From: Branchiostoma floridae
Taxonomy: Eukaryota; Chordata; Leptocardii; Amphioxiformes; Branchiostomatidae
DNA length: 64,000 nt
Assembly (NCBI RefSeq): GCF_000003815.2
Contig: NC_049984.1
Location: 10,676,234 to 10,740,233, forward strand
Direction: 5' to 3'
Positions 1,205 through 35,221 of this stretch are shown here, in pieces. The translations under genes were made by a program, and so were the position numbers. Position 1 is the stretch's first letter, and each line of letters opens with the position of its first letter. Under the pieces are notes generated by a model, which saw nothing but the letters and a program-made list of their open reading frames with translations, did no database searches and was not told the DNA's origin.

Positions 1205-1920
1205 TTTAGTTTTATTGGCGGTCCTACACGTCAGGTCCAACCGACAATTCCAGCCTATTGTAGGCGGTGCGCCCGGCTCTCTGGCCGGCATTATTACGTA
1301 CATTGATCCCGCGACCTTTTGGTGGCTGCGATAAAAGGCCATTTTCTGCCTGTCGTTACCGTTCGGAGATTGCCTGAAAGACCGCCATTCCACAATATCA
1401 CAATTAATGGCCGCGCATATAGGTGCTTTATCCGCGCATGCAGAAGCAAGTTTAAGTTCTGCGTTTGTCTGGGTCGCGTCATTTAAAGAAAATGATTTAT
1501 CCATTTGCTTTATTCGAATTCTACTATGAGTTATGATCCGCTGATTTCTGTGGCTCCTCGGGCCAGTCCATTTATTATTCCCGTGTCTGAAGGGTTGATG
1601 AGGCGGATTTGCCCGGGGAGGAGCCCGGCTTATCCCGCCGGTCCACGCGTTTCGGCCCGGTACCGACAAGTCCGTGGCCTTGGGAGTGGGTGGTACGTCC
1701 CCAGAGAGGACCCACACACACAAACCTCTGCGGTGTAGAAAAATGGTGTGTTTTCCCGGGGGTTTTATGTACAGCCGGGCTGATCCGACTTTTCAGGGCT
1801 TAAAGTCGCGATCCTTTGATGTGGAACATTGTGATGGCGGTGTACAATCCATGTTCACACACACGGGAGCACCAAACAGCATTTTAACAGATGTTAGTTA
1901 TAATTCCCCATGTCGTTGCT
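1205..1920 (+). repeat. Duplicated non-coding element, copy A (inverted partner at 32765-33480)
   Basis: This stretch aligns colinearly with the reverse complement of 32765-33480, and both are about 715 bp long. Similarity is mosaic. The outer parts are clearly related but diverged, and they contain a 35-bp perfect match (1286-1320 against 33366-33400). The inner 359 bp are almost identical. Open frames run through it on both strands, but they do not stay aligned between copies outside the core, so a protein-coding role is unlikely. The related flanks argue against a simple transposon insertion, which would sit in unrelated DNA. The outer limits are approximate. Function unknown; a duplicated regulatory element is the leading guess. 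Confidence 0.75.
1525..1883 (+). repeat. 359-bp near-identical core of the duplicated element, copy A
   Basis: Aligned by eye base for base to the reverse complement of 32801-33159. Both are 359 bp, with no gap and three substitutions, at 1557 (C here, A in copy B), 1669 (A/C) and 1691 (T/C). The last 192 bp are identical. Identity falls sharply outside both ends. In the open frame starting at 1526 all three substitutions change the amino acid, so protein-level constraint does not explain the identity. The core contains ATTGT (1828-1832) and ACAAT (1844-1848) facing each other 11 bp apart, which resembles paired SOX-type sites. Confidence 0.9.
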
Positions 1921-2515
1921 ATCCAAACAAAAGTGAAGGTCTTTGCCGAAGAAATTACACATCTTGGCACTACAGGAATCAATCTGCAGTTCTTGTGTAA
2001 ACAGTGGGAGCAGACGGAGGGAGATATCAGTGACATCGCTTGAAGGTTGTTAAAAGAACTCTCGGAAACAACTGCCATTTCCTAAGGAGAAATCTGTCAG
2101 ACAAGTGACAAGAATCGGGGCTACTTCATATATGGTCTTGGGGACGGGAGGGGTGAATATTGAAAACATACGAAACACTTGTATGGACCATAGAGACGCA
2201 ACATTTCCTCGTCAACTGGAATGATGATGGTGGCTCAGTACATGTAGCTTGGTCCGGATTAGTGAGACGTTTATGGATACAAGTGGATATCAGATGGAAT
2301 GTTATTTGAAGAAATAAAAACAACATGGTCTTCTTATCGAATAAATACGAAGGGCGAACAATGATGCAATAATCCATGCGCTGACCTTGCCAAAATTAAA
2401 ATTAGTCTGATAGGTCTATTCAAGCAATGAAGAAGTCTAGGAAGTCGGGTATACCACTACTATAGACTTTCTTTGATAAGGTCTCAAAGTTTCATTTTGC
2501 AGGCGAGTTCACCTG

Positions 2516-2561
2516 TCTCACTCACTCACTCATTCACTCTCTCTCTCTCACTCTCTCACCC
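2516..2561. repeat. CACT/CT microsatellite
   Basis: Imperfect run of CACT units passing into CT dinucleotides on the + strand. No function inferred. Confidence 0.85.
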
Positions 2562-3847
2562 ACGCACCCTCCCACTCAGTCCCATAGCTAGGTCTGATGA
2601 CGGGACATCATCTTTCGGCAATCATCTCTGAGACCTCATCACCTCCCGAGAGGGCTGACACGTCACACCCCAGACAGACCAACATACCTGACCGACAAAT
2701 ACGACATCTCCGTCTGTCTATATAATCCAGGAATCTCTGGGACAGACATATCTGTGACCGGAATGTTGACGTCATAATTATTTCCAGGGGGAGTCCGGAG
2801 ATATTTTCTATTAACGCGTCTCAGGAAAGCGTGTCATCCAGATCTTGCTTCTCGCTGACTCTCCACATCTTCTGTGTTAGTTGTGCTGCATGCGGTAGAC
2901 CTCAGGCCTCGGCCTCTCCTCCCCATCGGAGCTCTCCTCACAGCCACAACCAGGGCGTGAAATGTGTCCAGACCACCGGCAAGCGACGCCTGCCGGGCCG
3001 GGCTGGTCGTAACAATCCTTCCCAGTGTGGCGTTCACCTTCGCACCAGCGTGACGTTCACCCCTGGGCGGTGGGGAGGGGGGACCACCATGGCACCGGCA
3101 CAGCAAGCTCATCCATCACGAACTTCCACATGGATACACTTCACACAGTTAAATAGGAGGAGACAGAACGGGCCATTATAGTCCGCTTCGATTTGGTGTC
3201 GGGGGTCTGCGTCGACACGCTGGGCGTCGCACCATAGGAATTTCCTGGGACACATGAAATGGGTCATACTGTATGGGCTTGTGTTTTCTCATTGTATCTG
3301 CCGAGTTCACTATGTAGGCCTGTTATGTAGTGCAAATATCATACAGTAACTGTATCAAAACATCATCCAAGTGGCGTTGTCGTGTCCTTGCGTGTCACCC
3401 TCCCTCTGGTGTTCGTCCTTACAGAGCTTTCCCTCTCGCCGTGTCGACTCACACAACCAGTGAGTGCTATTGTCCCTGATCTGACTTGACTTAACAAATT
3501 ATCCACCCAGCTAAGGCCAAGGACGTCGCAACCACACAATATATTTTTTTGTCAAACTGAATTTGAGATGTACAGAGAAAACGTTGTCCTGGCGCAATTG
3601 CACGGACACAAATTTGTTTCGGTGGGAAGTCGGTGATTTCACGCAGCGTGGTTAAGTTGGTAATGACTGCTTGAGTTCTCCACGCCACATGTAAACCATT
3701 TTCCGTCCCGTCCACCATGCGGCGTCTGTCCCCAGGCCACGTTCACCCCCATTTAGCAGCCGACTGACAGACAGGCCTGTTGTCAGTGTACACAACATCC
3801 TGTCCTCCACCTGCCTGGACCTGCCGCCACCTGGTGGAGCCTGCTAG

Positions 3848-3857
3848 TCTCGCGAGA
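3848..3857. promoter_or_regulatory. TCTCGCGAGA (CGCG-element) site
   Basis: Perfect copy of the self-complementary TCTCGCGAGA motif, known in animals as a promoter element bound by BANP-type factors. It is flanked by CTAG on the left and by a nearby ACTAG on the right. No exon was identified beside it, so the promoter role is an inference. Confidence 0.45.
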
Positions 3858-6800
3858 ACACACGAGGACTAGTCAGAGACCTCCTCACTACCCCAGACCC
3901 TCATTTGTTGTTCCCCCGTGACCTATGAAACGGTAATATGTGTAAGTACAAGGCCTGTAGTTGTGTTGTTACGGACTGGGTGTAGAAAGAACACAGTCGT
4001 CTGTTCTGTGCAGGCCCGAGCCGTGAAGAGGGGAAGCCTTGCTGAAGCAGCATGAGCTCCAGTCGGCTCCGTGGGACAGACCCTGGGTCCTGAACCAACC
4101 CAACATGTGTTGGACATGGCTTACAGCCCGTGGCAAGGGTCAGGGTCCCGCCGTGTACATGAACAGTCCCAGACACGACCATATATCACCCAGCAGGCTG
4201 CCCCCCTCCCCAACCCCTCAATGGCTGGATTGTTGCCGTTCTACCGAGACCCCGCCGTACGTTTCCACCCCTCACACCTTGGTCCTGTTTTACCTGACAA
4301 CCGTTTTTACTCCAGGACGGGTTCCCAGTCCGTTCTACCCCACAGACCGTGCGCTGTTTCCCTGTCTGTACACAAGGCCTGTAATGTTAGTTTGTCTCCT
4401 CCACACAATGTGCTATCAATTGTACAAAGCACACCGACCGCCGAGTATCAGACTCGCTCGTATGTCTTCTCGTGCCCAATCAGGATATATCAGATTCCTC
4501 ACGCGACCCTTGGCTGCTCTTTGGATGTTTTCCTTGTGTTTTCATACCCTCCTTAATTAGATACATGCTTGTCTCTGCACCTTTATGTAACTTTAATGTT
4601 CCCCAGGCGTCCCACAAGGTTAAATTTCTCAGATGCTTCAATTTCAAATTAATCGCTGTCTACCTTAATTCTCATTCTGTCGACCGTAGCAAATGTGAGA
4701 CAGTGATAATAATGAAAACAATTCCCTTAGACATCGGCCCTACGCAACACCCTTGCCTTTAGGCTAAAGGTGACGAGAACATAAATTACACCTTTTGAGT
4801 CAGTAGGTGGAAGTTGAAAATTAGAAGTCCATAGTGCGCAGCTATGTCTTGTCGTTCTTAGTGCATTACCCATTAGGGTAGGGATAGTTTGATGACATTG
4901 CTGGCATAACTTTTTCGGCCAATAAAGCAAGAGGTTTTGTGGTGTGAAGTGGTGCATATGTATACTGAATGTGTCATCTCACATAGTTCCAAAGTTTCTG
5001 ACAAGACTCGACGAGTGACAAAAAAGGTTGGCAACAAATTTCGGTTGACAGTACTGATCAGTATTGTTCTCTGTCCGCCCGCGGGTTTGTTCTAACTTTT
5101 ACCAAGAAGACGCGAGGTTACCTGATTCTTACCTGGTCTTTTTGTCCCCCGCAGGACAGGACACTAATTCTATTTATATAGTGGCTGCACAAGTTCATTG
5201 TGAAGACGGTCTCGGTACGTTTTCAGCGGGAAGATTGGTGGGCCGGGCAGGCTGATCCTGTGAGATTGTTGAGATTGTCCTGTCCCAAGTTCTGTCGTAT
5301 CCTCCCCCTGGAGGCATTCCTGTAGACACGACGTAGAACATCAATCATATCACTACCTGTCGCCCCGAACGTCTCCATTCCTTTGTACTGTAAAATAGCC
5401 CCTTATTACTTCGTGCCGTGATAACAGCGAGGTCGCCGTGTCACATTAGTGTATATCGCAGCTTTCAAAGCAGCCGAGAAAAGGGCCCAATTAAAGAATT
5501 ACAAGGTGTATACACGGTCTTTGTGGCGGGGAGAACGCGGCGAGGCCCGGACTGTCCGCGGGATAACCCCGGGCCCGACCAGGCTGGAGGTCCGCCGGTG
5601 ACCGTGACGGGACGTGCCGTGGTCCCGAGGTTATGTCACCTTCCCGACTGGGACATTTCAGCCGTACCACAAGTTTGTGTGCGACTTGTAAGCCCGGGCA
5701 CTTACACGGTTACATGCTCCCCAAACATGGGTCATTGGCGCGCAACAGCCGATGGCGGCAGTCGTGTGCATACCTACAAACAACCATTCAAAATCTAGAC
5801 AGGCGACAGAGAAAAGCAACTGTTTTGTATACATGTAGTTCAGCAATGACCAACGAAAGCTACGAATCTCAGTTAAGTTCATTTTTATGCTCAAAAAGGT
5901 TCAACATACTGCTGCTAAATCACTATCAATATTTCATTGATATGGCTCAACGTTATCGACATGATATAAGATCATACAAAACAATAACAGAATAGACACT
6001 GATATGGGAAGTTTATTATCTTTTTGCTATACTTGCTGATAAAAAGAATAGAGTTTTCGTCTTAAATTTCTTCTCATTATGGTTTCCAATGTTTTTCTAT
6101 CTTATCGTTTCACGCCGGTAACACACCATGACTTGTGTGCGTTGATATATATGATACAAATTTGTCCATCCTGTCTGTAATCGGTTTGAATCCTCTCCTT
6201 CTCGTCTTACAAGGTTATCAGAAGTTTGTACTTCAAGGAATTGCGTCTCAAGGACTATTCTTTAAGCCGACTTTGAAGGAACGCTAGCCGATAAACGTCA
6301 TCGTTTTCGTCACGGTCTCTTTCAGCCGATTATCGGCAGGGCGCTTCAAAGTTTTGCCGCATGCACCAAGCTCCTTTAGCGCTTGAAGGTTTGGCACGAC
6401 ACAACAGACACAACAGAAGCCTCATTACCCCTGGCTTAATGTCATTTGGAAAAGAGAACTCCTGATTGGCAAGCCATTTAATCCTATCAACTTTTAGACC
6501 AATAAACGCTTAACGTGATTGACTTTGTAGCCCGATAGGGCGAAGAACAAACAGCATCTCCCGAAAATAATCGAAGACCTCCGATAACAGTGGAATTCCA
6601 GACAGCCTTAAATCTACACATAGAATAAAGTTGGACTTGAAGATTTTATGACTTACTAAACTCAGGCCGATCTGACCATCGACTGCTGACTGCGTCCAGT
6701 CGTGCTGGCCATCTGAGTTTGAGCATGCGCACTGAGGCGTCTATGTCACTATCCGAGACACTTGTTTTTACCTGTGTTTTTCTGCTTGTATATCTGTGGC

Positions 6801-7734: not shown

Positions 7735-7903
7735 TAGCCTGGGTACCATCCGGGTAGTGAGTAGTTCGCTCCTATGCTCACTTCTGCAACCCAGAACAGC
7801 AGAGAAGTGACTGTATATAGTGTATAATAAAAGTCGGAGCGAGAAGCGACTGTATATAGTGCACTAGTATATGGTCGGTACAATCCGAATGGTACCCAGG
7901 CTA
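7735..7903. mobile_element. Short terminal-inverted-repeat element (MITE), about 169 bp
   Basis: The left end TAGCCTGGGTACCATCCGG is mirrored at the right end, whose reverse complement is TAGCCTGGGTACCATTCGG (one mismatch in 19). Flanking 7726-7734 (CGAATTCTA) and 7904-7912 (CGAATTTTA) look like a 9-bp target-site duplication with one mismatch. Inside, a 20-bp direct repeat (AGAAGYGACTGTATATAGTG) occurs twice. There is no coding capacity, so this is a non-autonomous DNA transposon. The TAG...CTA ends and the 8-9 bp duplication suggest a hAT-like origin, but the superfamily is not certain. Confidence 0.8.
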
Positions 7904-8665: not shown

Positions 8666-10933
8666 CTATGTACCACTAGTCACCTCCAGAGTCTAAACGA
8701 AAAGAAATGTATTGATATATCATTTAGATGTAAACGACTACTTTCAGAGAGCGGCATTGAGTTGTTGGAACGATATTGAGGAGTAGGCGTTTATGAATTT
8801 GTATTGCGAGGGAACTTCAAAGTGTCATGTGGATATATTTCCCTGTCACAGTGGTTATAAGACCTGCCAAGCATAACTTTGCACAAGTTCCAAATTTTGA
8901 AATCCTGGACGAAATCCGATATGACTCAGTTTCTTCAAAGGTACCGCAGGCGACGACATGATGGCCGCTAGCCACACCTGTAGGATTCTTGTAGGATTAA
9001 CACAGGCGTCTTATCACCATGGGCAGAAAAAAACTATGTCAGAACACACATTCCGCCAGATATCTATTGTATAGACATTACTCCCGGACATGCATTAAGG
9101 GTGATTCCACAAATACTTCTTGTATCTCTCCGGCGTTTTTACATACTTTCTTCTAGTGATGATTGGAGCAGCGCAATTATAGAGATTTAGTTGCGACGGT
9201 GCCGGGTACCAAATACGGACTTGATGACAGACATCAAAACATCATTAGTCCTTACGATTATCCGCGAATGTTATTTACATTACGGTTGTTTACCAATCAT
9301 CGGATACAAACAAAATCTAAAATCACCGATTGAGTGACTGACGTAATACACTGATGTTATTAAGTTAATGCTGTAAATTGTTGTATTGCGCTTGTGTAAT
9401 GTCAACCACCGCGTGGCAGGATTTCGCTTGTCTTTTAAAGTCGGAGTTTAATGAATATTGAAAAATGGCGGTTTGTCCCACACCACTTTGTTGTAGTGTT
9501 TCTGTTAGTTTTGAAGACGCGTCTTCTGTGTTCAACCGCAGAGCGCTACACATCAACCAGTCGACTCTGGTGATACGGGATGGGAGGGTAGGGGGCTAGG
9601 GCAGGTCTAATTGGAACAACAGGAAGGCGAAAATCCCCAACAGAGTCTCCGTAATGCAACTAATGAGTAAAAAGGATTGGTGAAGGAGACCAGAACATGC
9701 TTTTAAACACCACGTTACTCTGTACCCGGGGGCACGGCCCGGCTCGCGGCTACACCGCGCCTGATCCGCTGACGCCTGGGCCGGCTACAAACCTACTTTG
9801 TTCGATTGTCTGGGAGGCTTGAGCAGGCTTAGCCGCGGCTTTACCTGTCTCACCAGCCAACACATGACACCTTCCCGGCAGCACCCACGGCGCTTTCTGC
9901 TTCTCCTCAACTCCAGCACGGCCACATTTGTGTGACTTCTCTTCCCCTCCGCATTCCTCAGCCCTCGTTATTTTCACTTCAGGTCTGAAAGGCGTCGTTC
10001 TGGTGACGCTTATTCGTCATTCCTCAACCCTGAAGTCTTTTTCCTGCTGTTTACCTGCTAATCTCAGGTGTTTACTTTGGTAAGATTCCTGATCGGAATA
10101 CCTTGTAAAGGTTAAGTCAGGGCAAGTTTTCCAGCCTTAATTCCCTGGAATAGCCTTTATCCAATAGCGTCGGAATGCAAGTGTTTTAGTAAGACATAAC
10201 AAAGCTAAGCGCACAGTCTTAAACAAAGAAGACAAGACCAGCGAACGACTTCCGAGAAAATCATTCTTTTGCAAACTTTGGCATACCTCCACAGGTTATC
10301 GCTGGTACGCATCGCATTTTTCCCAGGCGCGTCAGACAATGTTACCAACATTACAGACCCGCTTTTCTCCGGCTTCTCATAGCGGAGAAAATCCCGCTGG
10401 AGACAGGATGATCCGCACCTTCAAGGCTGATGCTGGGCACTGATACCGCGGGAACACCGGGGCTACCTTCTACAGAAGCTTCTTGAGAGACCTACGATCT
10501 TTTACGCACAATGTGAAATTTATGGCTTTCCTTTTAACTTTAGAATTGCTTATTGTCACTTATAATTTGTTCATCATCATCACGTAAACAATTTAACGTA
10601 TGGATGTGTAGCAAGCATTGGATAGTTAGGAGTCGTGGGACAGTGCTTTTCATTTCTCAAGGAGGAAACAGTCTATCAATCTCTTCCATATCTGCCTAAG
10701 GCGAGTCACAGTCAAGGATTAAGAACAACAGACCGCATAGCTTCAGTTTTGAGCCGCAAACTACACAAAGCCGAACCCGAAGTCTCAAACCCATACCTTG
10801 CCCTGTTACACCCCCCCCCCTCAACATTAGCCTAAAGTCACATGCCCTATCATACTGTCGGTGCTGTCAATCAAATGCTAGCGCGTACGTGTATACAACA
10901 GTAGCCACATTTCGGTGCTACTAAACATTACAT
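8666..10933. other. Intergenic DNA without recognisable genes
   Basis: No supported gene. The segment holds one copy (9430-9448) of a 19-bp sequence also present at 8041-8059, and a poly-C run near 10810. Confidence 0.5.
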
Positions 10934-11338
10934 GTGAGGCTACCAGATTCCCGGTGCCTGCCTGCATGCGAGGCTACAAGATTCCCGGGTGCCTGCCTGC
11001 ATGTGAGGCTACCAAATTCCTGGTACACCTGCCTACATGCGAGGCTACCAGATTCCCGATGCCTGCCTGCATACGAGGCTACCAGATTCCAAGTGACTGC
11101 CTGTGCGTGCGAGGCTACCAGATTCCCGGTGCCTGCCTGCATGCGAGGCTACCAGATTCCCTGTACTTGCCTGCATGCGAGGCTACCAGATTCCCGGTGC
11201 CTGCCTGCATGCGAGGCTACCAGATTCCCGGTGCCTGCCTGCGTACGAGGCTACCAGATTCCCGGTGCCTGCATGCGAGGCTACCAGATTCCCGGTGCCT
11301 GCCTGCATGCGAGACTACCAGATTCCCGGTGCCTGCAC
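10934..11338. repeat. 34-bp minisatellite, 12 units
   Basis: Twelve head-to-tail units of about 34 bp (30-36 bp), each built on GCGAGGCTACCAGATTCC followed by CGGTGCCTGCCTGCAT, with scattered substitutions. Because 34 is not a multiple of three, a reading frame cycles through all three phases of the unit. All three forward frames happen to be open, giving peptides of up to 142 residues that are almost certainly not genes. There are no unique spacers, so it is not a CRISPR array. Confidence 0.95.
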
Positions 11339-14300
11339 TGTAGACTAGACAAGCCCTGATGTCAGCACCGAGGTATTTCTGGCAGCGCCGTCGCCTTGTT
11401 TGGGCGGTCTCGGGATCAGAGAGGCTAATTTCTGGACTCAGGCCTCACACTTCGTGACGCCGAGCCGCAGACGCACAAGTCCCTGCGGTCTGCGTGATGA
11501 GAGCAGCTTAACTTTGGCCCAGTTGGTGACGTAGATGGCACCAGACAGACATAGCCACTTACTTAGAGAAGCCATTCTGTGCACATTCTTCAAGATTTGT
11601 CAGAGAAAGCGAAGGCAAACTTTTTACAGTCTGAAAGTTACATTCAGATATGTAACATTCGCGCATCTGTAAGTTACAAAAGTAGTATCAAACATGAATG
11701 TACATTACAATGGTTTTGTTGAAGAAATGCTGTATAACTCTATTCTAGACTCCATTGCTATTGACTTACTTTAATAAGAGTACAGAGATTAAGAAAGGTC
11801 AGCTATATTTAGTATGCGTTTTTTTTAAATCCGAGATGATATCTTTATTGATCATTTTGTGGTTACCTTGGCGCAAAGCAGATGTTTGTGGAAATGTCGG
11901 TATGAAAATCGGTCCTTAAGCGTTATTTTGTCGTATCAATGACTTTGCTTCTTCAATCCGCATCATTTTTTCGGCATCAACTTGACGCCAGACCAGCAAT
12001 TGCTGGTACATTTCCACTACTGTTGAAGCTATCGGCTCTGTGCAGTAATTGGCTCTTGTTAACGGGCCACATTTATCTGGAATTTCGTAATCAAGGAGTC
12101 CCCATATCTATCTGTATCATAGGGATTATGAGGACGCGACTAAAATGATCTATTGTCGGTGATCTGCAGGTGCTTACGAGATGCAGACACTTCTTTAAAC
12201 CATATCTTCTTGAGCTTTTTCTTCTAAGTCTCTTCAATTCTTAAATCTAGTACCATATAACATACAAGTAGCATACAAGCAATATGTCAACGCTGTGTCC
12301 TCGCTGAAACGTCTCCAAAGTTTCTTAATAAAAATAGTTTCTCCGATTACATATGATACAAGGCACGCGCCCTGTCATAATCACCGTGTAAGCTACACAC
12401 ATTAAGTGGCTCTTATTCACAATAGAAAAGTGACAACATGACGTGATCGGAGCCATGATACGTTCTCTGTCGTTGTCTATTAGTCTTGAAGTTTAACAGA
12501 CTGGGGTTTAACTCGGGTTATTCCATTGCTTAGAAGTCCAGAGGGGAGGACAATAGTTCAGCATCTCTCTCAGCGTTATTTTTTTTGTTAGATACTGCTC
12601 ATTGAATGAATGGAAATTTGGATACATGAATAAAACAAAAGTCAAGTTGTCTTCTTTTTTAAACGTCTCGTGAAGTTCTCAAAATTTCCATGCCCCTACA
12701 CATGAAATGGAATAACCCTCGCTACCATGACCCACATGCATTGTTGCACGCACGTTTGTAAGCTCGGACTTACATTTCTGACGCACAAACACGCGTATTT
12801 ACCCTTAATAGCTGTTACTTCTCCGTCCTGGCGACAGGCGGACTGTGCAGAGTGTGGTTAAACAAAGGTGCAGATCCTCCCTGACGTGTACAAACCTGTA
12901 ATGACAACCCCACCACGTCTCCTGAAAAGCGCGCCTAATTATAGCCAGTCCAAATATTAATCTACCAATACTCACAGTATGTACCGTTTACACACGCACA
13001 CACACACGCCCATGTACAAGAGGGAGGGGGGTTCTTCTAACAGACATGTCCCGGGGTTAATACTTGTACAACTAGTGTTCTGTGCCACAGCAAACATCAC
13101 TGCTTGTCCGGCAACTGTTTTCTTTTTTGACGCGAGTGTTGTTGCTGGCCGATGTACTTATTGTGTAGTTTAGTTTGCAATTCACCTTGTTGCCTTCCGT
13201 GCAGACTGGAAATATAGGCTGTTTATTCTGACGTGTCCACAAATGTTAAAACATGTGTACTGTCTGGGGCGAGACACAAGATGGCAGGTAGAAAGGTCTA
13301 GCTTGTTGTGACCACAGTGAAATGTAAGAGTAGGTAACGAAACCAGAAAGCGATCACAAGTGGAAAGTTGACGCGTTGTCCCTTGCGAAGGAAAATTGAT
13401 CAATATCGCTAGTTTATTTGCCACAATGGAACCATCTGTTGCATTTTTCCATGTATCAATTTATTACATATTCAATTATTATACTACCGAGGTTAGAAGT
13501 AAATGTCAAGCGGTGTTCAATAACGCTGCACTACGACTGAATAACCGAGGAGAGGATTAAGTATCAATCATTAATGATATATAAATGATCAGGTCATTCG
13601 GTATCATGATTCCGTATTACAATAATCTTGATCACAACGAAGCGACGCTGCGTATCAAAGGATAAAAGAAGCCGTTTGACAATATAAAAGAGAAACTGTA
13701 CACCTATCAAAGAGAGGTAATCAGTTATTGATATGCCCGTGTACAAATAAACATTAAGGCTGGACGGGAATAAAGCGGTCCATAATAGTACTCATCACAA
13801 ACCACTTAAGCTACGTGAATAGGGCATCAAGTTTCTCCTACAACTGCTGAATACAATATATCAGAAGTTCCTAAACTTCCCATTTTGACAAAACGCTCCA
13901 AAAAGACAAAAAAAGGATAGAACTTTGTCAGAATCTCTCCAAGAGAGAAATGCTAACAACAGCACTCTCGCCATGTACATGTTTTGTTCTTTGTTTCCCA
14001 GTCTTGTATAGAAGTTCCGTGAGGTCGGTGTTGTGGTGTAAGGGATATGGCGACGAAAGCATTATTCCTCCGGATACAGCTCGGTAGAACGTGTTGTGTG
14101 CGGGTTGTTTATCTAGCCACCTGTAGAGAAAGGAACGAGAAACCATTCTCTGTAGCAGAGCATAAGAAATTGATATATCGTATTTTGTTCTGTTACTTCC
14201 ATGTTGCAATGTGTCGTGTGGATTTTATGTTTTAATATATCTTGCGTATAACAATACAAATTAAATACGATGTACCATGATGTCGGCCTCCGAAATACTT

Positions 14301-16709: not shown

Positions 16710-17606
16710 ATGCTAGTTCTGTTGTATCTAAACAATCAAGACGACAGGCGACAACGAGGTACTTTGTTGTTGGATGCTTGCAGGCCTGACGCCGATGACA
16801 TTGAAGCAAGGGCACTGAAAACACTCATAAACAGTTGCATAAAACCGATCTTACTTTATTGTGGCGAAGTCCTTGGAACAACTGTACAAGGAAGAGACCT
16901 TATTTTCTATGGGATAAAAGAATATGAAAATGAAAATACCAGAGAATCAATAAATAGGATTATCAGTACGTTACTGGGATCAGAAATTCATATCCTTAGA
17001 GCCTCTCGTGTTGGCAAAAAAGACCCTTCCACTACTCGCCCTGTCCTTGTCCGGTTTCAAAAATACAGCGACAAATTGAACATTATGTATCAATCAAACA
17101 CACTAAGAGACCAGGACATAACTTTTGAGCAACCAAAAATATCATATGAAATTTCTGATTTGGAATTTGTGCTTTTGAATTATTGCAAAATTTCACTCGG
17201 CGTACCCAAAAGCTCTGTCAACGCCGCGGTCAGGGGTGAGCTAGGAGTTTTCCCACTTTATATTGATTCACAGACACAGATGATAAATTACTGGCTTAGG
17301 TTACATAATCTCCCAAATGACAGACTTGTAAAGAAAGCATATAATACTTCTGTTGAGCTACAACAAGACTGGGCTGTGCATGTGCAAGATATGTTAAGTA
17401 GACATGGTTTCCAAAATTTTTGGCTTAATCCTGCTGTTAATGCCAACCGTTTTGAAAATATATTTAAGAACCGTCTGCAAGACACGTTTCTCTCTGGTTG
17501 GAGACAAGAATTAAGAAGTTTTAACAAACTCAGTACTTACTGTAAAATAAAAAAAAGAATTCTGTTTCGAAAAATATCTTTCATCTGTTCAAAACAAATT
17601 GTTTAG
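16710..17606 (+). pseudogene. LINE ORF2 C-terminal fragment with embedded ORF1-like segment
   Basis: Open for 298 residues. Residues 35-56 (ending KPILLYCGEVLG) match the region just after the reverse-transcriptase palm of many LINEs. Residues 148-183 (NYCKISLGVPKSSVNAAVRG and on) match the thumb-side segment that normally follows within a few tens of residues. Between them, residues 59-141 (nt 16884-17132) instead look like the RNA-binding domain of an L1-type ORF1 protein (LIFYGIKEYENENTRESI, RVGKKDPSTTRPVLVRFQKYSDK). The insert is in frame. The frame then leaves the LINE reading at an A-run near 17549-17556, giving a short wrong-frame tail. It is a fossil, not a host gene, unless transcription proves otherwise. 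Confidence 0.75.
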
Positions 17607-17916
17607 AAATGACCTACCGAGACTAAGGATTAGTGCACACACCTTACAAATTGAAAAGGGCCGACACTACAACATACCAGCCAATGAGAGACTTTGTCCC
17701 ACATGCCATAATGACATAGAAAATGTAATGGATTGTCCGACTTATGAAGAAGACCGTCAAAAGTTATTTCAAAATATTGTATGTAAGTCCGAAATTGTAC
17801 TACCACATGCTAGGTCAGAGGTATTCCATTTGATATTATCATGCCCTGTTCATATATCTGCCTACGTTGGCCAATTTATTTACAACTCATTGCAAAAACG
17901 AGATAATGCTTTATGA
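17599..17916 (+). pseudogene. LINE ORF2 C-terminal cysteine-domain fragment
   Basis: This frame continues the LINE protein after the frameshift. Its similarity extends upstream of 17599, and it has no ATG there (TTG). Residues 9-32 (LRISAHTLQIEKGRHY, then ERLC) and the pair CPTC at 33-36, followed by a further Cys at 46, match the CCHC-like end of many CR1/L2-type proteins. The His ligand and a few residues usually found between the second and last Cys are missing here, which suggests a small in-frame deletion. It ends with TGA at 17914-17916. Confidence 0.75.
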
Positions 17917-21815: not shown

Positions 21816-21856
21816 ACTTCGCGGGCAGACATACCGTACAACAGGACAGTCCCTAC

Positions 21857-22306
21857 GTTACCATGACAACCCCAGATGGTGCATCCCGCAGTAAGATGGA
21901 CCGGCTATGGAGACCATCCGCATCCTCCATCACTATGGCAACCGCAGACAGCGCATCCTTCAGTATGATGGACCGTCTATGACGCTCATCCGCATCCTTT
22001 GTCACTATGGCAACCCCAGCGTCTAGCAGTATGATGAACCCGTTACGCAGACCATCTGCATCCTCTGTCACTATGGCAACCGCAGATGGAGAATCCCACA
22101 GGAAGATGGACCGGCTATGTAGATCATCTGCTTCCTCCGTCACCATGGCAACCCAGATAGAGCGTCCAGCGGTATGATGGACCGGCTCTGGAGACCATCC
22201 GCATCCTCCGTCGCTATGGCAACCCCAAGTAGGATCAGACCTCAGTATGGCGGCTGACAATGCAGATCCCCCTCTTCCTAGTTACCATATGAATAACTAT
22301 GGCAAC
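21857..22306. repeat. 72-bp tandem repeat carrying RFX X-box-like sites
   Basis: Six to seven diverged units with a 72-bp period. Matching points lie at 21857, 21929, 22001, 22067, 22139, 22210 and 22293 (steps 72, 72, 66, 72, 71, 83). Each period has a 14-bp site: GTTACCATGACAAC, ATCACTATGGCAAC, GTCACTATGGCAAC (twice), GTCACCATGGCAAC, GTCGCTATGGCAAC and ATAACTATGGCAAC. Five of the seven fit the X-box consensus GTHNYYATRRNAAC of RFX factors, or nearly so; two have A in place of the first G. The rest of the unit (GATGGACCGGCTATG, then ACCATCCGCATCCTCC) is less constrained. Because 72 is a multiple of three, the minus strand stays open for 135 residues of a 24-residue repeat. I judge that a by-product, but it cannot be excluded as coding. 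Confidence 0.85.
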
Positions 22307-25300
22307 CCAGCAGGACCATCCCTTGGACCGGCCATGTGTAGACTTTCTCACGGCTCCTCAATGGTCGATGTAGGTCAGAAATCGTGAAGAAATCTTGAAA
22401 AAATAAACTTTTCCCACTTTTTTCCAATTTTCGAAAAGCTGATCACAAAACGGCTAACTTACAACCAGATTTCATTTGTAAGAGGCTGTTCGTTTTCTTC
22501 AGCTAGTGGTTTTTCTTTTCTTTTTCTCTTTCCGCGATCCGTTGACTGAAGCACCTATCTTGTAATTAATGGTGCAAGGCTGGCGATTTCTATTCAAGCA
22601 CAACTTTTTCGCCTTTTTGACGGCTCAACATGACGGACCGTACGAGCGACCTCCCACCATGTTCTGCGCGCCTAGCCATTTGTTCGTGTAATGGGAGTCA
22701 ATGTGTACACGCATGTATCACTGCGCCCACCACCTGAGACAAAAACATTGGACGGTACCGTTACACCGCCGCATCACATGGCCTTGTGATGGTGACAAAA
22801 GACTCGCAGGAAGCGATGCACATCTACAGGATGTTTAGCGTTTATCACTACAAACAGTTTGACCAGTTTGACAAAGTTTACAGTTTGTGACGAAAGTCAG
22901 TATTAAGAGATCTTTCAGGGAAAAAATGCATAATTTTCGAAAGCAAATACCGTCTTCCCACTTTATCAATTCTTGTTGAACTTTTCACAACATACAAGTG
23001 CAAATGATTCATCTGCGTCTTCCCAATCACGGGAACACCTGTAACGTTCATGTCCGCGTCCACGACCTGCAAATAACCCCGTCTCTCGTCCCTAGAAACG
23101 GCTCGTTTTTCACAGCGCGCTGTGACACGTTGTCAGAGATTTTATCTGAGAGGTGTCAAAGTCGCCATTACCGTTCACCTGAGAGGGTGCCGGGTCGCTG
23201 GGGGAGACGGGAGAGCAAACTTGTACATCGGGACATTCCCGCTGCCCAGGTCTGCAACCCCACAACCCGGCACTACGGGACGTATTCAATCACGGGCGGA
23301 TCGGCGCTGGAGCCTGGTCCGGTCACATACCTCGTACGATCGTCGTACGACCGCAAAATGACGACATTCTTTGGATAACCGTCCAGGCGGCATACAAAAT
23401 TCACCTGTCTTGTTATGGATGAGGATATCATGTCGGGGGTTGGTGTTTGAAAATTTTATTGCATCAAAATCGAACGACGGCCTGCGACGAATGCGACCGC
23501 GCCCACCCAGACTTTCTCAATGGTTCTACACCCGTCGCAATCACACTGATGAAGAAAAGTTGGTATAGAAAAGTTACTACCAGTGAAAACTTGGACATAT
23601 CAAACTTTTAATGGTCAAAACTTATGCCTTTTAATGGTCAAAAGTACTGTCTGTCAGCAGTTTCTAAACCTTTGAATACTTTTTCTTGGAATTTTTATTT
23701 TTCTTAATCTCATCCTTTTTTTTTTGCATTTCTCTCATTGTCACACTCTCTCCGTTTGATCTTTTCTGTGTTTGTTTTATTGGTCATACCTTCTTGAATA
23801 TTGCACACTCTGCGTATCAAAGTAAAACGCACCACTGGAAGCCACAACAGAGCGCGGTAAGTTGGCAAAATGTTGTTTTTGCCCACCTCTGGATTTTTGA
23901 GGTTTGCCTTTGTTGAAAGTTGGGAGTGTTTCGCTCCATCCAGCTCTAAAGGAAGAAAATGTTGAAGACCTCGCGGTTCAGTAACGCGAATGAAGCATTT
24001 CTAGCATTCACTCCGATCTTTTCTTAAATACATCCTACAAGGAGACGAAGTGTTGCGTGGAAATCGTCGACTTGTGCCTCCACATAAAGCAGTTTTGTGC
24101 GGGAAGAATCCTGTATACAAATGATACGCGATTTAGTGGAACATTTGCAGGTATCCTGGCTACCACCTTCTCTGTGGCCCTTACAAGGTTGAATAGGTTG
24201 TCCGTGGGAGGCGGATCAGTGGGGGTACGGGCAGAAATTTGTTCCGATCCCAAAACCTTTGTTCCCCTTCACCCTTTTCTTGCAAGCGGCGGGGGAAAGA
24301 AAGACAAATGACAATTCTACAAGGCTCGGTCTCTCCGGATCACTGCGTATCAATCCGCCGTTGAGCGGGATTGACTCCCCGCGATTCTATCCAACTTGTA
24401 TGGCGCAAAGTGCCCATTGACGATCCCTCTGTGTCCGATTTGGCACGGCGTTTTGCCCGGCCGTTTTTTCTTGTCAGGGCAACTCAGCTTCAGAAAAAAA
24501 GGAAGATGGGAGGGGGCTTTCAATTCGCGGGGTCTTTTTCTTGGCGAGTGGTACTCCAGAAAACAATCACATCGCCGACGTTGTTACAACACCGCTACAA
24601 GAGTGGCTTTATACCGGGGCCTCCGCGCACTGATCGGTGACCGGTCCGCAAGAACACTATCCCCCGTCTAGAGTCACAGCCTCTCGGAAGTGAATACACT
24701 GTCTTACATTACTTTTGTTTGTGGGGACGCGGAGGGCTTTGTTCGCATGTCTGTGTTTACGCGTATAACGGTGCTAGCTGTCATGTAATACACAGCGCTC
24801 ACTTTCTTGAGAAAACTACATGAAAGGCGGTGCGAGGACGGGTCAGAAATGGATGACGGGTGTCTGTTTCAGACTTCCACCCCCCGCATGGTGTTCTCCG
24901 TGTGGAGTAATGTTTAGGTGCCACAATACCACACGTGCGACCACCGCTACCTGAGTCGCCAAAGGAGATACCTGGCGTAACTTCGATATCTTCCGACAAA
25001 GTGTCACACCAGTTGGTCTGCGCTTCTCCTACCTGCAAGTTTGAGTAAGGATGGTCCTTCCAAGTATTAGAATGGGATTATCACGGCGTTTGTGTAATGG
25101 ATGTCAAAGTTCAGGCGCTAACAGAAGAAAGAAGTGTCGAACAAGTCCGGGGCAGCGGCTCGCGTTGCCGGGCTTGATGTCAGCCCATTGTGCTGGTTGT
25201 TAGAACGGGCTTTCATTCTGATCCGTGCCTGTACGGCCTTCTGTAAAACCCAATCCTCTGAACATTGTGCACAAGTACCTACCGGGTATCCAAACACAAC

Positions 25301-28300
25301 GCTAACTTTTCAATCATAACATTTTCATTGCCTCGCTTAGAAGATCCACTTACTCGTGGCGCGGTTCTTAAGCCGCCCTCTCTTTGATAGCAGCCACCGC
25401 GGAGGCCGTGTTTCCAGTAAATTGACTTAAATATATTTAGGCGGCATCAATACGGCTGTAATGGGTTGTGTTGAATTTGTTCATGCGGCAGGCCAAATCG
25501 GGGTAGTGTACACGGAGGATTCCGTGTCTAGGCTCGCTAGCCTGGCTGGATTACATGGGCTTATATGATACACTCACATCTGCACTCCATTTCAACTTGC
25601 TCCGAACGTAATAAATTCCCATTAAAGCTGTAGTATTACGCTCGAATCGGAAGCCGAAAGGGACCCCAGATATAGTTTTACAGACAGAACTCAACCATTT
25701 TCCCGTTCCTTCCTAAAATACCTGACATAGCTGCAAGTCTTCAGCCCACTGATCTGTTAATACCGGCAGCTTGGCTTGAATGACACCGTGACAAGACGTT
25801 TGCTGTTGCACCAAGTTTAGCTTAGGCACACTTGGACGCTGTCTGAGGCCCCCCAGCTTTGATCACTTCTTCTTGGCTCTCTTCAGGGCTGTATGGTTAT
25901 TATTGTTGGCATTAGCCGCTACTTTCGCTGGAGCCGGGCGTCTCGGAGAGGAGACGAAGTTGGGACTAGGATTTCGCGCGCAATGTAAGTGAGAAGTGAG
26001 GCATGGGACTCTCCGCGTTCCTGCCTCCTGGAGGAGTGAACAGTTGACTCCCCGGACAAACCCACTGAGTAGAACCTGAAGAAAAACTGTCAAGAAAAGT
26101 AAACATACAGCCACATAAAACTAATAGGGAGGGGAAACATGAGACTTAGTTATGTAGGAAGGAAAAGTAAAACATTTCAGGACCTTGACGGACAAAGACA
26201 TATTACATGGTGAGTTATAGTCCGGTAGCGTTTGTGTGTCCGGTTGAGTTTGCCCAGCTCGAGTGAGGGTGGTGTCTTTTAATAGATATCTTCATGAGGA
26301 AGCGCCAGATTTGTAAGACCATTAAAAGTGAAAGTTAAGCATGCAATAAGATAAGGAAGAGAAAAGTTATAACTTAATTCTGTACGGTTTCTGTTATTTC
26401 CCGTGTACGTTTATTTTACGTAGAGTACTGACGCAGTCACATCACCGAACTGAGCGCGATGTGTGTTAGGCGGAATTTTAACGAGTTAGATATTGAATTA
26501 TTGATGTCCTTCTCTTCACGGGGTTTAGCGCCCGACTGTTGCAGTTTCAATGGCACTCAATCCGATTAAAAGTCCCCCGAAATCCCGCCAGCTTTAAAGG
26601 CTTACGGTATTTTCTGAAGTCCCGGTGTCTAAACGTGGCGCGCGCGTGCACATGTAAGTTTTGCAATTTTCGCCAATGTTCGAAATCGCTGACAGCGACA
26701 TATATGGCACTCCCCCTCTTTGTCACCCGTCTCTAAAATTGGATTATCACGTAGCTGTTTGCCGTGGAGTGATTAAGTTCGCTGGCAAATACCACAAATG
26801 TTACACGGCCTCTCTTTGCGTAAGAACTTGGTAAAACTAAAAGCAAACGGGATTCCGGCCGACGACAAACTGCGATCGGCGCTCCTCAAAGCGTTCTAGG
26901 CAAGCTGACAACTCTCGACCAGCAGACGTACAAACTTGCAAAATCTATCAAGTAACGACTTCATTTAGACACAGGGCGAGTCTATCGGCTGCCACCCGAG
27001 GGTGCCACATTTGACAAGTACTTGTCACTTTTTCGATTTACATATGTACCCCATGTATTACAAGCTGGGAATACAAATCCAAACTACGTATGGCTTGCTG
27101 GGCCCTCCCCTCATTTGTATGGTTTCCCGAATACGGACAAGGCATCCAGGAGCCGCCCGACATACTAATTTGGAGCTGGCGGCCTGGACGGCCGAAAATT
27201 CGATAAAAATATAACAGATTTGCAAGTTAAACACGAAGAGACTGTGTCGCGACTCCGTTTTTCAATAACCTGACTGTTACTCGCCCATTGTGCGCTCCCC
27301 CCGCCGCCAGAAACCCACTTATTTCCATCCTCCTCCTTTGTTGCTCTGTCCAAGCCGTTAATAGAAGCCGAAGCAGCGCAACAAAAGAGGCGTACGTGGG
27401 AATTATCGTCATTAAATTAACCCGGAGAATACCTAGGAGAAAATGCAATCATAGCCACTACAAATCCGAAGATTCCCCCGTCCCATAGCTCTCCTTAAAG
27501 CCGCCACCGGTCGCGACGAGACTGACACTAAGGAAATCAAGCTCGGCGAAGATGCGGACGTTTCTCCGGCAGCTTCTCCAATCTGTCGCCCACAGGGGCT
27601 CACCCTGTCAGTTTGCTGCCGATAATGATCCAACCTGCAGCGGTAAAATAAGCACACGGATCACGTGCCATCACCCCCGGGTCCCGCTGCCGTGGCGCTC
27701 TCCGCTGACAGGGGTGAGAGGAGGCGCAGTGGGGAGGGCAATTGGTCTGGACGGCCGCTCGGCAAAATCTCTATTTGTCCCTCCACAGGCCCCTGACCTA
27801 TCCAAGTCAAAGTTTTGTGGAGAACAGACGCAGCTGTCTGCTCAGGTTTATCGTAACGACTCCTGTGTGAACGTACCACAGCGACATACACAATAGAATA
27901 TGTGGAACTCTTCCTCGCAAAATTACGACAAGAGGATACATCACATAGACGTCCAGATAAACTTCTGAAAGAGGGAGCCGTCAACGTGTTTGCATATGAA
28001 TGGGTGAATAGGAAAAGAAAGCACTGGTTGGTTGGCTGGCAGACTATTTAGACTGATATGATTTTTCATTTTTTTTCCTTTTACAATTTCACACTTTCAT
28101 GTCCCACACCAAGCTGTCAGGACTGGGCATTGACCTATGGGGCCTTGGTTGTGCATTGAGTTTCAATATTTGATGAAAACTGTTTTTAAGACAACTGAAT
28201 ACATGGTATTCAAATCTACTCAACATCTGCGAACAAAGTGTTTTCAGTCTTTGGTATTTGTATTCGGTATTTAAATTGAATTTGTCAGCGCGCATGAGCA

Positions 28301-31300
28301 CGTGTACGCTTAGCCTTCTTTGCATTTGATTTGAGGATTACCATGGCGCATGCGTCAAGTGTACAAGAGTTAAAGTTTTCTTTGTTAAGTATTTTGAGCC
28401 AGGTGAACACAATCGTTAAGAACGTAAAAACCAATGGCATATGGCCACCGGGCGCTGAATGGACCCTTGCAGACATCTTGAGTTGGGAGTAAATATTCTC
28501 TTTATGCGGCGAAAGATTGACACAACATGGGAGCGAATGCCTGGCTATTTGTATGAATATAACGGAGATGAAAGGAGACATTTTACACCATCTAGTCAAA
28601 ACAAAGTGTCCCTGTTCCAGCTATAAACATGCCCCTTTTAAATCGCCCGTGGTTTGGTCAAGGCTCTCCTGCCAAGAAAGTTGACAGGGAACGCGAGCTC
28701 AGCTGACATTCGGACGCGCACGATCTACAACAACTTGTGCGAGTCGGGAATGTTCGGAGACCCGAGACGACCCTCAAACTCTCCCCCTTTGCCTTTCCTC
28801 CGGTTTGGGTGACCCCCACGCTATCCGGGTGGGATCATCGGTTCGTGTGGCGACATCGCCTTCTGCCTTAACCCCCTCATGCCTTTAATTGTGTTTGGGT
28901 TTCTGAATCCAGGTAGGGCATGTTGTTTTAAGTAAGTACGAAGCTTGTCATACTTGTCGCATCAAAACGTGATCCGGCTTCCCGGCGCGCTGCGCGGTAT
29001 CTTGTCACACCGCACACAAACCCCGCTTCTCGGAAAAAGGATCCAGTTTTTATCAGAAACTCGAGAATCTGTTGTTGATGACTTAAACCCCTCAGGTTTA
29101 AGGAGGGATTCCACAATATTTGGTCTGGTCTTCGCCTTATCGCAAGGGATCGAGGATTTGGCGACACCAGCTATAAGGGAAGCCTTCTTAGTCTTAGCCT
29201 TGTTCCTTAGCAAGAACACAGGTTTAAACTCTTGTTGTATACACTAGCATAAGGGGATTGGGAAGTTAAGAGTACGAGATTCCCCTCCGGAGTGGCGGGG
29301 ATACCAGGCCACGTACGTAACTCCTGTGGCTTGACAGGACCGGTGTTGTTTCTAATTGACAACCTTGGTGACTTCTTACAATATTTGGTCTGGGGAGGAT
29401 TTCATCTGGTTGGGTGGTGGCGCTGGGGCGTCGGGAGCTGACAGACAGGCCCGGCCTCTTTATCCCAGACTCCATTACATGTTTGGCAACAGGGTAAACA
29501 GTCGATCCGATCACCAACAGACACACGGGGTTTTCGCCACTTCAGTCTAGTTTCTCTGACAGCTCTGTCCCACAGGCGCACAACTAACGTCTGTCAACTC
29601 ATGAGGCGACTCGTATGGTGTTATTTTTACTGCGCTCTGTTGCGCGATCCTTGCGGTTTGACCTAAGGATTAATGGCCATAAACCAACGCATTAAATGAA
29701 TATGTAATCACGCAAAGCAAGCAAACTATTGGATCAAGGATTCGGTAGGTTTTTTTTACCTCCAGACTAGAACTACCCTCAAGTTTAGGAACCCAAAGTT
29801 CCGCGAAGTATTTTCTCTCCTCCTTGACTGGCCCTCTCTTTCTGCCTCTTGTATGATTTATTATTTCGGTGCTATTATTCTTGAGAAGGCATGCACGGAG
29901 TGGAAGTGGAGCTGCAGGAACTTGTACGGCACACGCCCTGTGTCGGTCCAGCGCGGCTGGTATGTAGCGAACAGGTCACACGAGCCGATCAACTCATCCA
30001 AAACTGGTCAGGAATGAAAATAATTATTCTGTGGCATTACTCACTATCATCCCGTGTCATCAGCACAGCCGCTCCAGACTATCCCAAGAATGGGGATTAT
30101 TTTACCTCTCCAAAAACACTTGTGCGCGCCCTCTTAGAGGTCAGGGTATTGATTTGGCCCGGGGATTACACTGTAGACTACACAGCTGTGAACAGGGAGG
30201 GGATGTCGGCAGTATGTACAACACATGTATCATACTTCAGCTAACATCTCGCCCGCGGCTCCACCGAGCCCGCCTCTACACATAGCTTAAGTCCTTACAA
30301 AAACAAACTCAGCAAATGTCTTTCTTGTTGGAAACTTTTCTCCCGGAGTATGAGGAAATGGAGATTTTCCACCCGTGTTCCCGCGCGCTGCGCTAAAAGC
30401 TACAGCAGGTGAATTAGACCCGGCCCCAAGGTAAGTAGTGGCCGGAGGGTTCGTCTGCAACTTGAATTACGGAAGACTCCACTATCTGCAGACTGGAAAC
30501 ACGCAGGGAGTGTGCCCTGGCCGTATTTCATCCCTGATGTGATGGAATCTACTCTGGAAGATGTCAGGCCGATGCCCCTAATCCTGTCTAACGTCTGTTT
30601 GTTTGGCGATGGCTCCCAGTATCATAGCCCGCTAATACCGGGCCGAAACTGACCCGGCTCTTCTAACTACAGTCCCCTCATAGGACTCACAGATGGTGGA
30701 AGATTGAGGCGAACAGTGCTGCACTCGTTAAACCTGACCACCAGCGGTCATACGCTTTGTGCGAGCTTAAGCCACTTGTATGCAGTATATGTATAGTCAT
30801 GGTAATCCAAGTTTAATTCACTGCGAGTTAACCAAACCGTGAAAACGCACACAAGAGAGACGACAAACTCTAGCAGATGTTCTGTCGCGTACGGTACAAT
30901 CGGCTCTCATTCAGGCCGCTCTACTTAACATACAGGACGGGCAGCAGATAAAGGGCCTATCGGAGCAGTTTAAATTGATGCCTCAGAGTTCAAGTCACCC
31001 CGTCTGCAGCCGTGCAGTACAAATGCAAGCTCTATCAACTTGGGCGATTGCCTCTTCGACGCCCTTTCAGTTCCCGTCTTTGTGCGGTGTTCACTTGCCT
31101 TGCTGAGTGCCTATCGGGTCACCCGTTAGCTTGACCAGCCGGAAGAGGTTTGCAGACAAAGAAACAAGAAAAAAGACACGAATGAAAGACTTTTGTTTCT
31201 GTGTTTCTCCTGTGTTTGATTTACCAGACTGTCTGTCTGCGCCAATGTTTCTTTTATTCAACTTCATTCCAAAGTCGTTACAAACATAACTTTCATTTCT

Positions 31301-32764
31301 TGAACATCGTCATTTCATTTTCAAGGAGTTAAGATGATCCGTTCTCACTGTTGTGTATGATAAAAAGAGGTTTGGGACAAGAGTATAGGCAGCTATAGGG
31401 CCGTCTGCACAGTAGCGTTAAGGTTATCACCGCTAACCTATGACCTCTCCTAAGGGTTTCCTGTTTTCAATACTTGAGAAGTGTTATCGCAAGGAAAGCA
31501 ATGGTAAAGTCTTAAATCTGCTAAAATGCGGGCAAGAACAACACAAGTAAACCCACAGGCGTCGAGGAAACGATTCCCGAAGAACCTGCGATCAGACAAA
31601 GAGAAGCAAGACTTCAACATAATTATGGGATTCCTTTAACTTTATGATCAGTGGTCTTCTCTACGATTTCCTTTTTACGAGACGTGTAGCGCCTATAATG
31701 AATAGCCAAATGGCGCAAAAGACTAAACAGCGATAACTCTATCACAGAGATACGGTGGTGAATTACAACTTGAACAAACGCTATCTCTGTGCACAGTAAT
31801 CAAACTGTAAAACGTCTACATTCTCCAGACGCTGGCTGTGGTTTTGCCCGCTTTAGGGAGCAGCACATCGCCACGGAGATCTAAATTTAGGCTGTTAATC
31901 ATCCTTCCCGCAGACAAATTGAATCAGGGGCAGTTCGCACCTCTCTTAATTGATATTAAGCACTTGGACGGCGTAATGTTTAGTTTTGCAGTTGATCAAA
32001 TTTCGATTAAAAGGATCCACAAATGAAGTCGTAATGACCACCATAATGATCCATTCATCTTGTGCCATTCAGGGGCTATCACCCGCTCGCGGTGAGGAGG
32101 AGCGCTGGCGGCGGCGCTTGGTGGTTCAAGGCGGGAGAAGTATGTATGGGCTGTTCTGCTGGAAAATCGTCTGTTTGTTTGTTGATATTTGTAGGAGGGC
32201 GTGAGGAAACACTGCATGCACACATACACACACCACCCGTAGTGTGTGAGGAGGCGGGGTTCACTGTACATACAGCTCATTCAATACGTTTACTGAAAAT
32301 ATACAGACTTTCTTGATAGTTGTAGATGCAAAATCATTGCGTGTCTTTCTCAAAACAGTTAGACCTTTGTTAGATGACGTGGTGCAGTAAGATTTCGGAT
32401 GGTTACACGCAGTTGTGACATCGTATTTTTGTAGCGACCTCGCACCAACGTACAAGTCAAACACCAGCGCGCTGCACTGTCGAGAAGGCAAACCTCACAA
32501 GCACACAATGGCGAGGTTACACACTGGCGAGAATTCAATTCAAAATCAAACTCTCTCGTGTTCATTTTTAGAAACGTAAATTAACTGTAAAACTGAATCT
32601 GTGATGTCGTCTCAATAATGTCGTAGATGATAATTTTCAGGTTGGACCATTTTGCGTATGTTGGTAACGGTCCCCGGTCAGGACATAAACCAGGGATAAA
32701 CTTGGAACCACCCGCAAGGATCACACGGATTTAAACGTGAATGTAAAATCCCTACATTATTCCA
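22307..32764. other. 10-kb intergenic stretch, CpG-rich, no recognisable genes
   Basis: No exon or RNA gene recognised in either strand. Several CpG-rich patches (about 23100-23500, 24350-24670, 27500-27750) carry only unrelated overlapping open frames. The segment 26400-26800 has a mixed AT/CpG texture with intact TAAT-type sites, as in developmental enhancers. A signal-peptide-like frame at 26114-25863 (-) lacks an ATG. A 16-bp sequence ACAATATTTGGTCTGG recurs near 29113 and 29378. Confidence 0.45.
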
Positions 32765-33480
32765 GTAGCAACAACAGAGGGGATAAGCCAACAACGGTTC
32801 AATGCTGTTTGGTGCTCCCGTGTGTGTGAACATGGATTGTACACCGCCATCACAATGTTCCACATCAAAGGATCGCGACTTTAAGCCCTGAAAAGTCGGA
32901 TCAGCCCGGCTGTACATAAAACCCCCGGGAAAACACACCATTTTTCTACACCGCAGAGGTTTGTGTGTGTGGGTCCTCTCTGGGGACGTACCGCCCACTC
33001 CCAAGGCCACGGACGTGTCGGTACCGGGCCGAAACGCGTGGACCGGCGGGATAAGCCGGGCTCCTCCCCGGGCAAATCCGCCTCATCAACCCTTCAGACA
33101 CGGGAATAATAAATGGACTGGCCCGATGAGCCACAGAAATCAGCGGATCATAACTCATACCCCGAACTGTACATAGCAGAAAACCTCACCCCGTTCTTTT
33201 ACGAACAACGAAACCAAGACGGACTATTATCCTGTGAATGAGGCAGTCATTTTTAGCATGACGTAAGTATCGACATCTGCGCCTACAAATATTAATTGTT
33301 GTGCTTTTGAACCAGACAATAATCCCTGAATGTAGAGGGAAAGTAGCCTTTTATCGTAGCCACTGAAAAGGTCGCGGGATCAATGTACGTAATAATGCCG
33401 ACCAGGCGCACAGAGGGCCGGTGGAACCGTCAGTTGCACCTGACGTGCAAATCGCCCAATAAAAGCGAATAGTCTGATTT
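32765..33480 (-). repeat. Duplicated non-coding element, copy B (inverted partner at 1205-1920)
   Basis: Reverse-complement counterpart of copy A, colinear over about 715 bp. A 35-bp perfect match lies at 33366-33400. The inner flank (33160-33345) and the outer ends are related to copy A but diverged by substitutions and small indels. It lies about 2 kb beyond the predicted 3' end of the Irx transcript. See copy A for interpretation. Confidence 0.75.
32801..33159 (-). repeat. 359-bp near-identical core of the duplicated element, copy B
   Basis: Identical to the reverse complement of 1525-1883 except at three positions, with no indel. The half nearest 32801 (the last 192 bp in copy A orientation) is perfectly identical. 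Identity drops abruptly beyond both ends. Confidence 0.9.
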
Positions 33481-35204: not shown

Positions 35205-35221
35205 TACATGTAACGTATACA

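Follow-up and report, generated by a model that had tools for sequence, protein, structure and literature searches.

The window analysed here is a stretch of 64,000 nucleotides of the Branchiostoma floridae genome (C6:10676234-10740233); positions are numbered within it, and C6 coordinates are given for features that lie outside it. A homeodomain search of the assembly identified three Irx homeoboxes on C6, designated hereafter as L, M and R, the next matches being far weaker and on other contigs. The Irx L homeobox (C6:10671169-10671366, plus strand) is 5 kb left of the window and the Irx R homeobox (C6:10790235-10790432, minus strand) 50 kb to its right. The Irx M homeobox, of 66 codons, was found inside the window at 38185..38382 (C6:10714418-10714615, minus strand), within an ORF with a Pfam match to Homeobox_KN. 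L and M are arranged tail to tail, a geometry that follows from the position of the second Irx gene, L, outside the window. The sequence from M to R contains a run of N (C6:10776800-10776899). The three Irx genes of Branchiostoma have been attributed to duplications specific to that genus (PMC2674049).

Exon and intron limits of the Irx genes were inferred from reading frames and alignments. The Irx M first exon together with its 5' flank (38839..39206, minus strand) includes about 320 bp that are nearly identical in L, M and R, synonymous sites included. The C-terminal region of Irx M (37224..37871, minus strand), a stop-to-stop frame without a Pfam match, is diverged from those of L and R and provides a third copy for judging the L-R tract described below. 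An element 3' of Irx M (35069..35328, minus strand) is 88.8% identical to Irx R in direct orientation and 82% identical over 158 columns to Irx L, with about 40 bp identical in all three. The region upstream of Irx M (39237..39927, minus strand) is common to Irx R, again in direct orientation, and largely without counterpart at L; a perfect M-R run of 243 bp was placed within it from alignment windows.

Two segments of 359 bp, core copy A (1525..1883, plus strand) and core copy B (32801..33159, minus strand), matched in inverted orientation with three mismatches (A/B: C/A at 1557, A/C at 1669 and T/C at 1691) and no gap, as had been predicted; the BLAST E-value of 0.0 excludes a chance match. 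Their divergence of 3/359 (0.84%) is below the polymorphism quoted for B. floridae, 4% (PMC8994340), and fits a recent event or strong constraint. Copy A is situated about 6.4 kb downstream of the Irx L homeobox and oriented as Irx L, and copy B about 5.0 kb downstream of the Irx M homeobox and oriented as Irx M. The original prediction had seen in the convergent orientation an argument for chromatin looping. That argument falls away, since each core copy is simply oriented as its own Irx gene and tail-to-tail duplication gives such opposed orientation.

The predicted diverged but homologous flanks, with a perfect block of 35 bp, were confirmed as well. Across 724 aligned columns, those of the core among them, identity was 79.6%, with an abrupt drop at each of the two core edges, and the flank block at 1281-1346 (against 33405-33339) was 91% identical over 67 bp, with the perfect 35-bp stretch inside it. 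A flanking element on the Irx L side (1097..1369, plus strand) has a partner at Irx R (C6:10784196-10783926) that is 90% identical over 274 columns and reaches 96% across 158 bp. The counterpart at Irx M (33331..33464, minus strand) is more diverged, comprising the 67 bp at 91% and a diverged remainder. The 35-bp block adjoining the core is identical in L, M and R, with the surrounding DNA in M mostly diverged. A search for a core remnant at Irx R yielded nothing beyond matches of 16-23 bp, and the alignment of Irx R to the flank ends past the 158 bp. Searching the whole assembly (513,431,437 bases) with the core returned two places, match counts in such searches being possible lower bounds for repeats; the six islands searched in the same way, the core among them, matched only C6 between 10.639 and 10.881 Mb. 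A dispersed transposon was rejected on these grounds, in agreement with the original prediction.

Self-comparison of 260 kb around the Irx cluster paired the L side (10639-10707 kb) with the M/R side (10709-10849 kb) through islands of similarity in inverted collinear order. Two items departed from this order: a block of L at 10660-10667 kb, which is displaced and matches 10745-10757 kb, and the core, which is paired with a segment at M. Trimming of 23 noncoding pairs by a scoring rule gave 23 tracts from 22 of the pairs and none from the pair at 10667014. Over a combined 12,558 aligned bp the tracts carry 201 substitutions and 23 indels, for a mean identity of 98.4% (range 90.6–100%), and their selection by similarity biases them toward high identity and sharp edges. 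They include stretches of 1,834 bp (98.2%), 1,250 bp (99.3%) and 542 bp (99.8%), as well as the core, of which 357 bp (99.2%) remained after trimming. One member of every pair is located at L because the pairs were chosen so. The partners (n=23) lie upstream of R in 12 cases, downstream of R in five, within the displaced block, which is between M and R, in five and, for the core, downstream of M. Segments common to M and R were found too, as were distal-proximal matches within the upstream arrays, for example between L 10639303-10639453 and 10748184-10748034 (96%).

Four of these islands in the window, all on the plus strand, illustrate the range. The tract at 3608..4569 (962 bp) is 98.5% identical to C6:10782076-10781115 near Irx R, and two places were returned for it in the genome. 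The near-identical segment at 25139..25429, with its partner at C6:10763614-10763324, contains a tract of 251 bp at 96.4%. At 27517..27717 all 201 of 201 bases are identical to the partner within C6:10761780-10761570, with about 50% identity to the left of the tract. Two tracts at 29981..30663, of 367 bp at 99.7% and 112 bp at 92.9%, are paired with C6:10760766-10760126. Paralogous noncoding elements are present at matching positions beside duplicated Irx genes.

Between the islands, little of the spacer DNA was aligned by BLAST at E 1e-6, and nothing in most spacers. The 60 bp outside 26 islands were 13–55% identical, and spacer lengths were unequal between the arms. Paired islands in unalignable spacers indicate that the regulatory landscape around Irx apparently underwent an inverted duplication long ago, and that only the islands stayed alike. 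In 50-bp windows over 28 inverted noncoding pairs, 195 of 296 were at least 98% identical, 27 were at 70–90% and 34 below 70%, whereas random pairs aligned within the 260 kb as background gave no window at 60% or above. Of the 37 windows from seven direct M-R pairs, 7 reached at least 98% and 12 were at 70–90%, and these pairs also contain perfect runs of 243 and 142 bp; in view of these runs we abandoned the notion that only inverted pairs are near-identical. Near-identical tracts with abrupt ends in diverged homologous sequence are present at the core pair, between Irx L and R, and in the step-like distribution of the windows.

Such sharp edges suggest that the copies were kept alike by copying of DNA, that is by gene conversion, as well as by selection. 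The best-supported candidate for gene conversion at the locus is a tract of roughly 400 bp between Irx L and Irx R that starts within an inferred intron and stops mid-exon. In its 87 codons, 3 of 63.7 synonymous sites have changed (dS 0.049) and there is 1 nonsynonymous change; both counts are small. In the 33 codons upstream, before the intron, dS is 2.9, and the 116 codons downstream have 71.7 changes at 91.2 synonymous sites, which amounts to saturation, in a protein alignment that is weak there (37/116 residues identical). The difference in synonymous change between tract and downstream codons was pronounced (3/63.7 against 71.7/91.2; Fisher p 1.1e-21). Across the same tract the comparison of L with M gave a dS of 2.9, so these codons were able to diverge. 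Within the tract, L differs from R at 4 positions and from M at 129; immediately beyond it the numbers are 181 and 162 (chi-square p 5e-23).

A noncoding element in four copies points the same way. Two of them, a and b, are in L, one is near R and one near M, and the four have no more than about their first 100 bp in common. Over 538 shared columns, aL and aR differ at 3 positions and bL and bM at 1, whereas a and b differ at 176–177. If constraint had been unchanging, the inverted duplication would have to be dozens of times younger than the split of a and b, despite saturated spacers and unconverted codons. Conversion that reset the inverted pairs would remove this conflict of ages. A reading by constraint alone could still be saved if a and b specialised early and were frozen thereafter.

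Signs of constraint were also evident. About 320 bp of the exon 1 region are almost invariant in L, M and R with edges alike in every pair, and about 60 codons are unchanged; DNA-level constraint explains this pattern at least as well as conversion. Exon 1 dS was 0.074 (L-R), 0.156 (L-M) and 0.135 (M-R), which, like the homeobox values given below, falls between that of the L-R tract and those of the codons beside it. The synonymous differences sit at the 3' end of the exon, for which reason filtering at the protein level was dropped as an account of the exon 1 differences. In the noncoding tracts, indels make up 23 of 224 changes against 22% in individuals of B. belcheri (binomial p 4e-6, with a yardstick from another species and tracts picked by similarity); the latter value corresponds to averages of 2.85 million indels and 9.92 million SNPs per individual (PMC7008246). 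The direction of this deficit suggests that the islands are not neutral and may be under purifying selection, and for some islands selection alone might account for the identity.

Based on the signs of constraint together with those of conversion, we favour the action of both forces, selection keeping homology and conversion keeping identity. An Irx gene and its regulatory landscape would have been duplicated in inverted orientation, with an extra copy of Irx to the right, at a date so early that DNA free of constraint can no longer be aligned. The islands that were kept, the core included, would be cis-regulatory DNA under purifying selection, and recurrent gene conversion would have copied a few hundred bases per event between the gene neighbourhoods. 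Limitation of conversion to homology preserved by selection would give sharp-edged islands in diverged flanks. We regard this combination of old inverted duplication, purifying selection and recurrent conversion as the probable explanation of the locus. The noncoding islands are putative enhancers, and the core pair and the other noncoding islands may well have been made by conversion. A broader reading, that the whole Irx cis-regulatory landscape is in concerted evolution, seems to us evenly balanced between right and wrong: conversion between the mirrored arms would edit enhancer after enhancer, so that the three genes keep common enhancer sequences while spacers and C-termini diverge to saturation.

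Gene conversion and extreme constraint on a duplicated regulatory element had both been offered in the original prediction as explanations of the core. Each gained ground for the locus, conversion through the Irx L-R tract of coding and intron sequence and the four-copy element, and constraint through the blocks identical in all three copies and the indel deficit. To the 359-bp core itself, which has no third copy at Irx R for comparison, conversion plus constraint is assigned presumptively, by its likeness to the neighbouring islands.

The most serious competitor to this combined reading is pure extreme constraint, in which the islands are paralogous ultraconserved elements, each copy frozen independently since the duplication and none converted. 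It would explain the blocks identical in three Irx copies, the exon 1 block with edges common to all pairs and the indel deficit in the tracts, and it has a parallel in the amphioxus Pax3/7 locus. There, 84 CNE pairs are reported and noncoding identity across cephalochordate species is at least 90% over most of 74 kb (PMC6010424), indicating that cephalochordate noncoding DNA can diverge slowly. We nevertheless consider it rather unlikely, as it has to accommodate a dS of 0.05 in the L-R tract beside saturated sequence in codons that M shows to be free to diverge, the 177 of 538 columns that differ between families of the four-copy element against 1–3 within pairs, and the step-like distribution of window identities.

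Much less probable is a recent inverted segmental duplication in which the spacers were replaced through insertions and deletions, an origin that would agree with the differing spacer lengths of the arms and with a mean substitution level in the tracts (1.6%) lower than the figure of 4% given for polymorphism in B. floridae (PMC8994340). A recent date conflicts with homeobox dS values of 0.158 (L-R), 0.321 (L-M) and 0.389 (M-R), with coding DNA beside the L-R tract that is saturated at synonymous sites and retains only 37 of 116 residues, and with the spacers, most of which lack a BLAST match and whose first 60 bp next to the islands are no more than 55% identical. In addition, IrxA, IrxB and IrxC are also recorded in a B. 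lanceolatum assembly (PMC9673378).

An assembly artefact, with two haplotypes laid down in inverted order, is very improbable. Lancelets are highly polymorphic (PMC8994340), the Irx cluster of B. lanceolatum needed manual curation (PMC9673378) and the N run noted above interrupts the sequence between M and R, but the L, M and R homeoboxes differ from each other at 6–13 of about 42 synonymous sites, their C-terminal parts are unlike, and the copies are on one 28-Mb contig whose sequence from core A to core B is free of N.

We place equally little weight on a structural RNA or protein-coding gene duplicated along with the Irx genes, an idea to which fold z-scores of -2.05 and -2.54 (no more than a mild gain in stability over shuffled sequence) and the open frames present in islands lend something, and against which stand the lack of any Rfam family match or ARAGORN tRNA over the window, the failure of five ORFs, taken from three islands in the window, to match Pfam, and substitutions spread roughly evenly over codon positions in most of 19 islands (a descriptive result, uneven in two with few changes). 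The structural RNA proposed in the original prediction thus finds little support, as does looping. A crude scan for CTCF sites with a consensus sequence, allowing at most two mismatches, gave none in the core or flank at L or M, which says little because 0.44 sites are expected by chance per 825 bp and the consensus may not fit amphioxus CTCF.

Identity between noncoding copies is often taken as extreme constraint, and the 23 tracts, three paralogous genes and coding neighbours of this locus offer a means of telling constraint from conversion. Should conversion homogenise enhancers, paralogues could remain co-regulated with no need for each copy to be selected separately, and sequence divergence would misdate paralogous CNEs. 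Inverted near-identical copies in diverged surroundings, homogenised by gene conversion, are familiar from Drosophila Amy and Hsp70 and from the palindromes of primate sex chromosomes. Unlike those systems, the near-identical DNA at Irx is mostly noncoding, is divided into about two dozen islands separated by unalignable spacers, and accompanies genes for developmental transcription factors. In vertebrates, duplicated CNEs are retained as paralogous noncoding elements beside duplicated developmental genes, Irx included, and are markedly diverged from one another. The Irx tracts described here (n=23) differ from these in their identity of 90.6–100%, with a mean of 98.4%, and in their step edges.

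Among the matches listed in a search of the open literature, judged by titles and the beginnings of abstracts, none described conversion or mirrored homogenised noncoding islands at amphioxus Irx, and a 2008 paper on Irx clustering may mention some of the elements. For the amphioxus Pax3/7 paralogues, nucleotide conservation was suggested to be possibly due to gene conversion (PMC6010424). The paper on Pax3/7a and Pax3/7b reports no recurring CNE in the stretch it analysed (PMC6010424), whereas many noncoding islands recur at Irx. In a B. lanceolatum assembly, IrxA and IrxB are on separate small scaffolds, the cluster having been curated by hand (PMC9673378), an outcome that near-identical arms would make likely. 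In the neural plate of amphioxus, expression of IrxA, IrxB and IrxC alike is caudal to the Fezf/Irx limit (PMC5396861).

The inferred first Irx exon and its 5' flank (window positions 38839-39206 in M, the Irx gene inside the window) were nearly invariant across the three paralogues L, M and R, with approximately 60 codons of the exon free of any change among them. On the L side, outside the window, seven of the nine islands listed at C6:10642-10656 kb (loci L012 and L013; C6 is the contig holding the window) had a CpG observed/expected ratio of 0-0.2, computed for the islands themselves, and a GC content of 43-53%. Islands closer to the gene differed from these, and the 10642-10656 kb region is possibly a methylated domain.

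Tandem repeats were common to both members of some island pairs, namely a 24-bp minisatellite (C6:10639447-10639696, 10.4 copies; C6:10848480-10848793, 13.1 copies) and a 122-bp repeat (C6:10654223-10654458, 1.9 copies; C6:10813654-10814142, 4.0 copies). With 76% similarity to a section of the C6:10653290 island (1.2 kb), window positions 56563-56709 (147 bp) may represent a further, diverged copy.

Two overlapping open frames on the forward strand at window positions 16704-17916, which had no Pfam matches, are reminiscent of the tail of a retroelement reverse transcriptase. Self-comparison of the window also revealed tandem arrays at 10925-11343 and 21852-22227, with offsets between best-matching copies of 69 and 72 bp, respectively.
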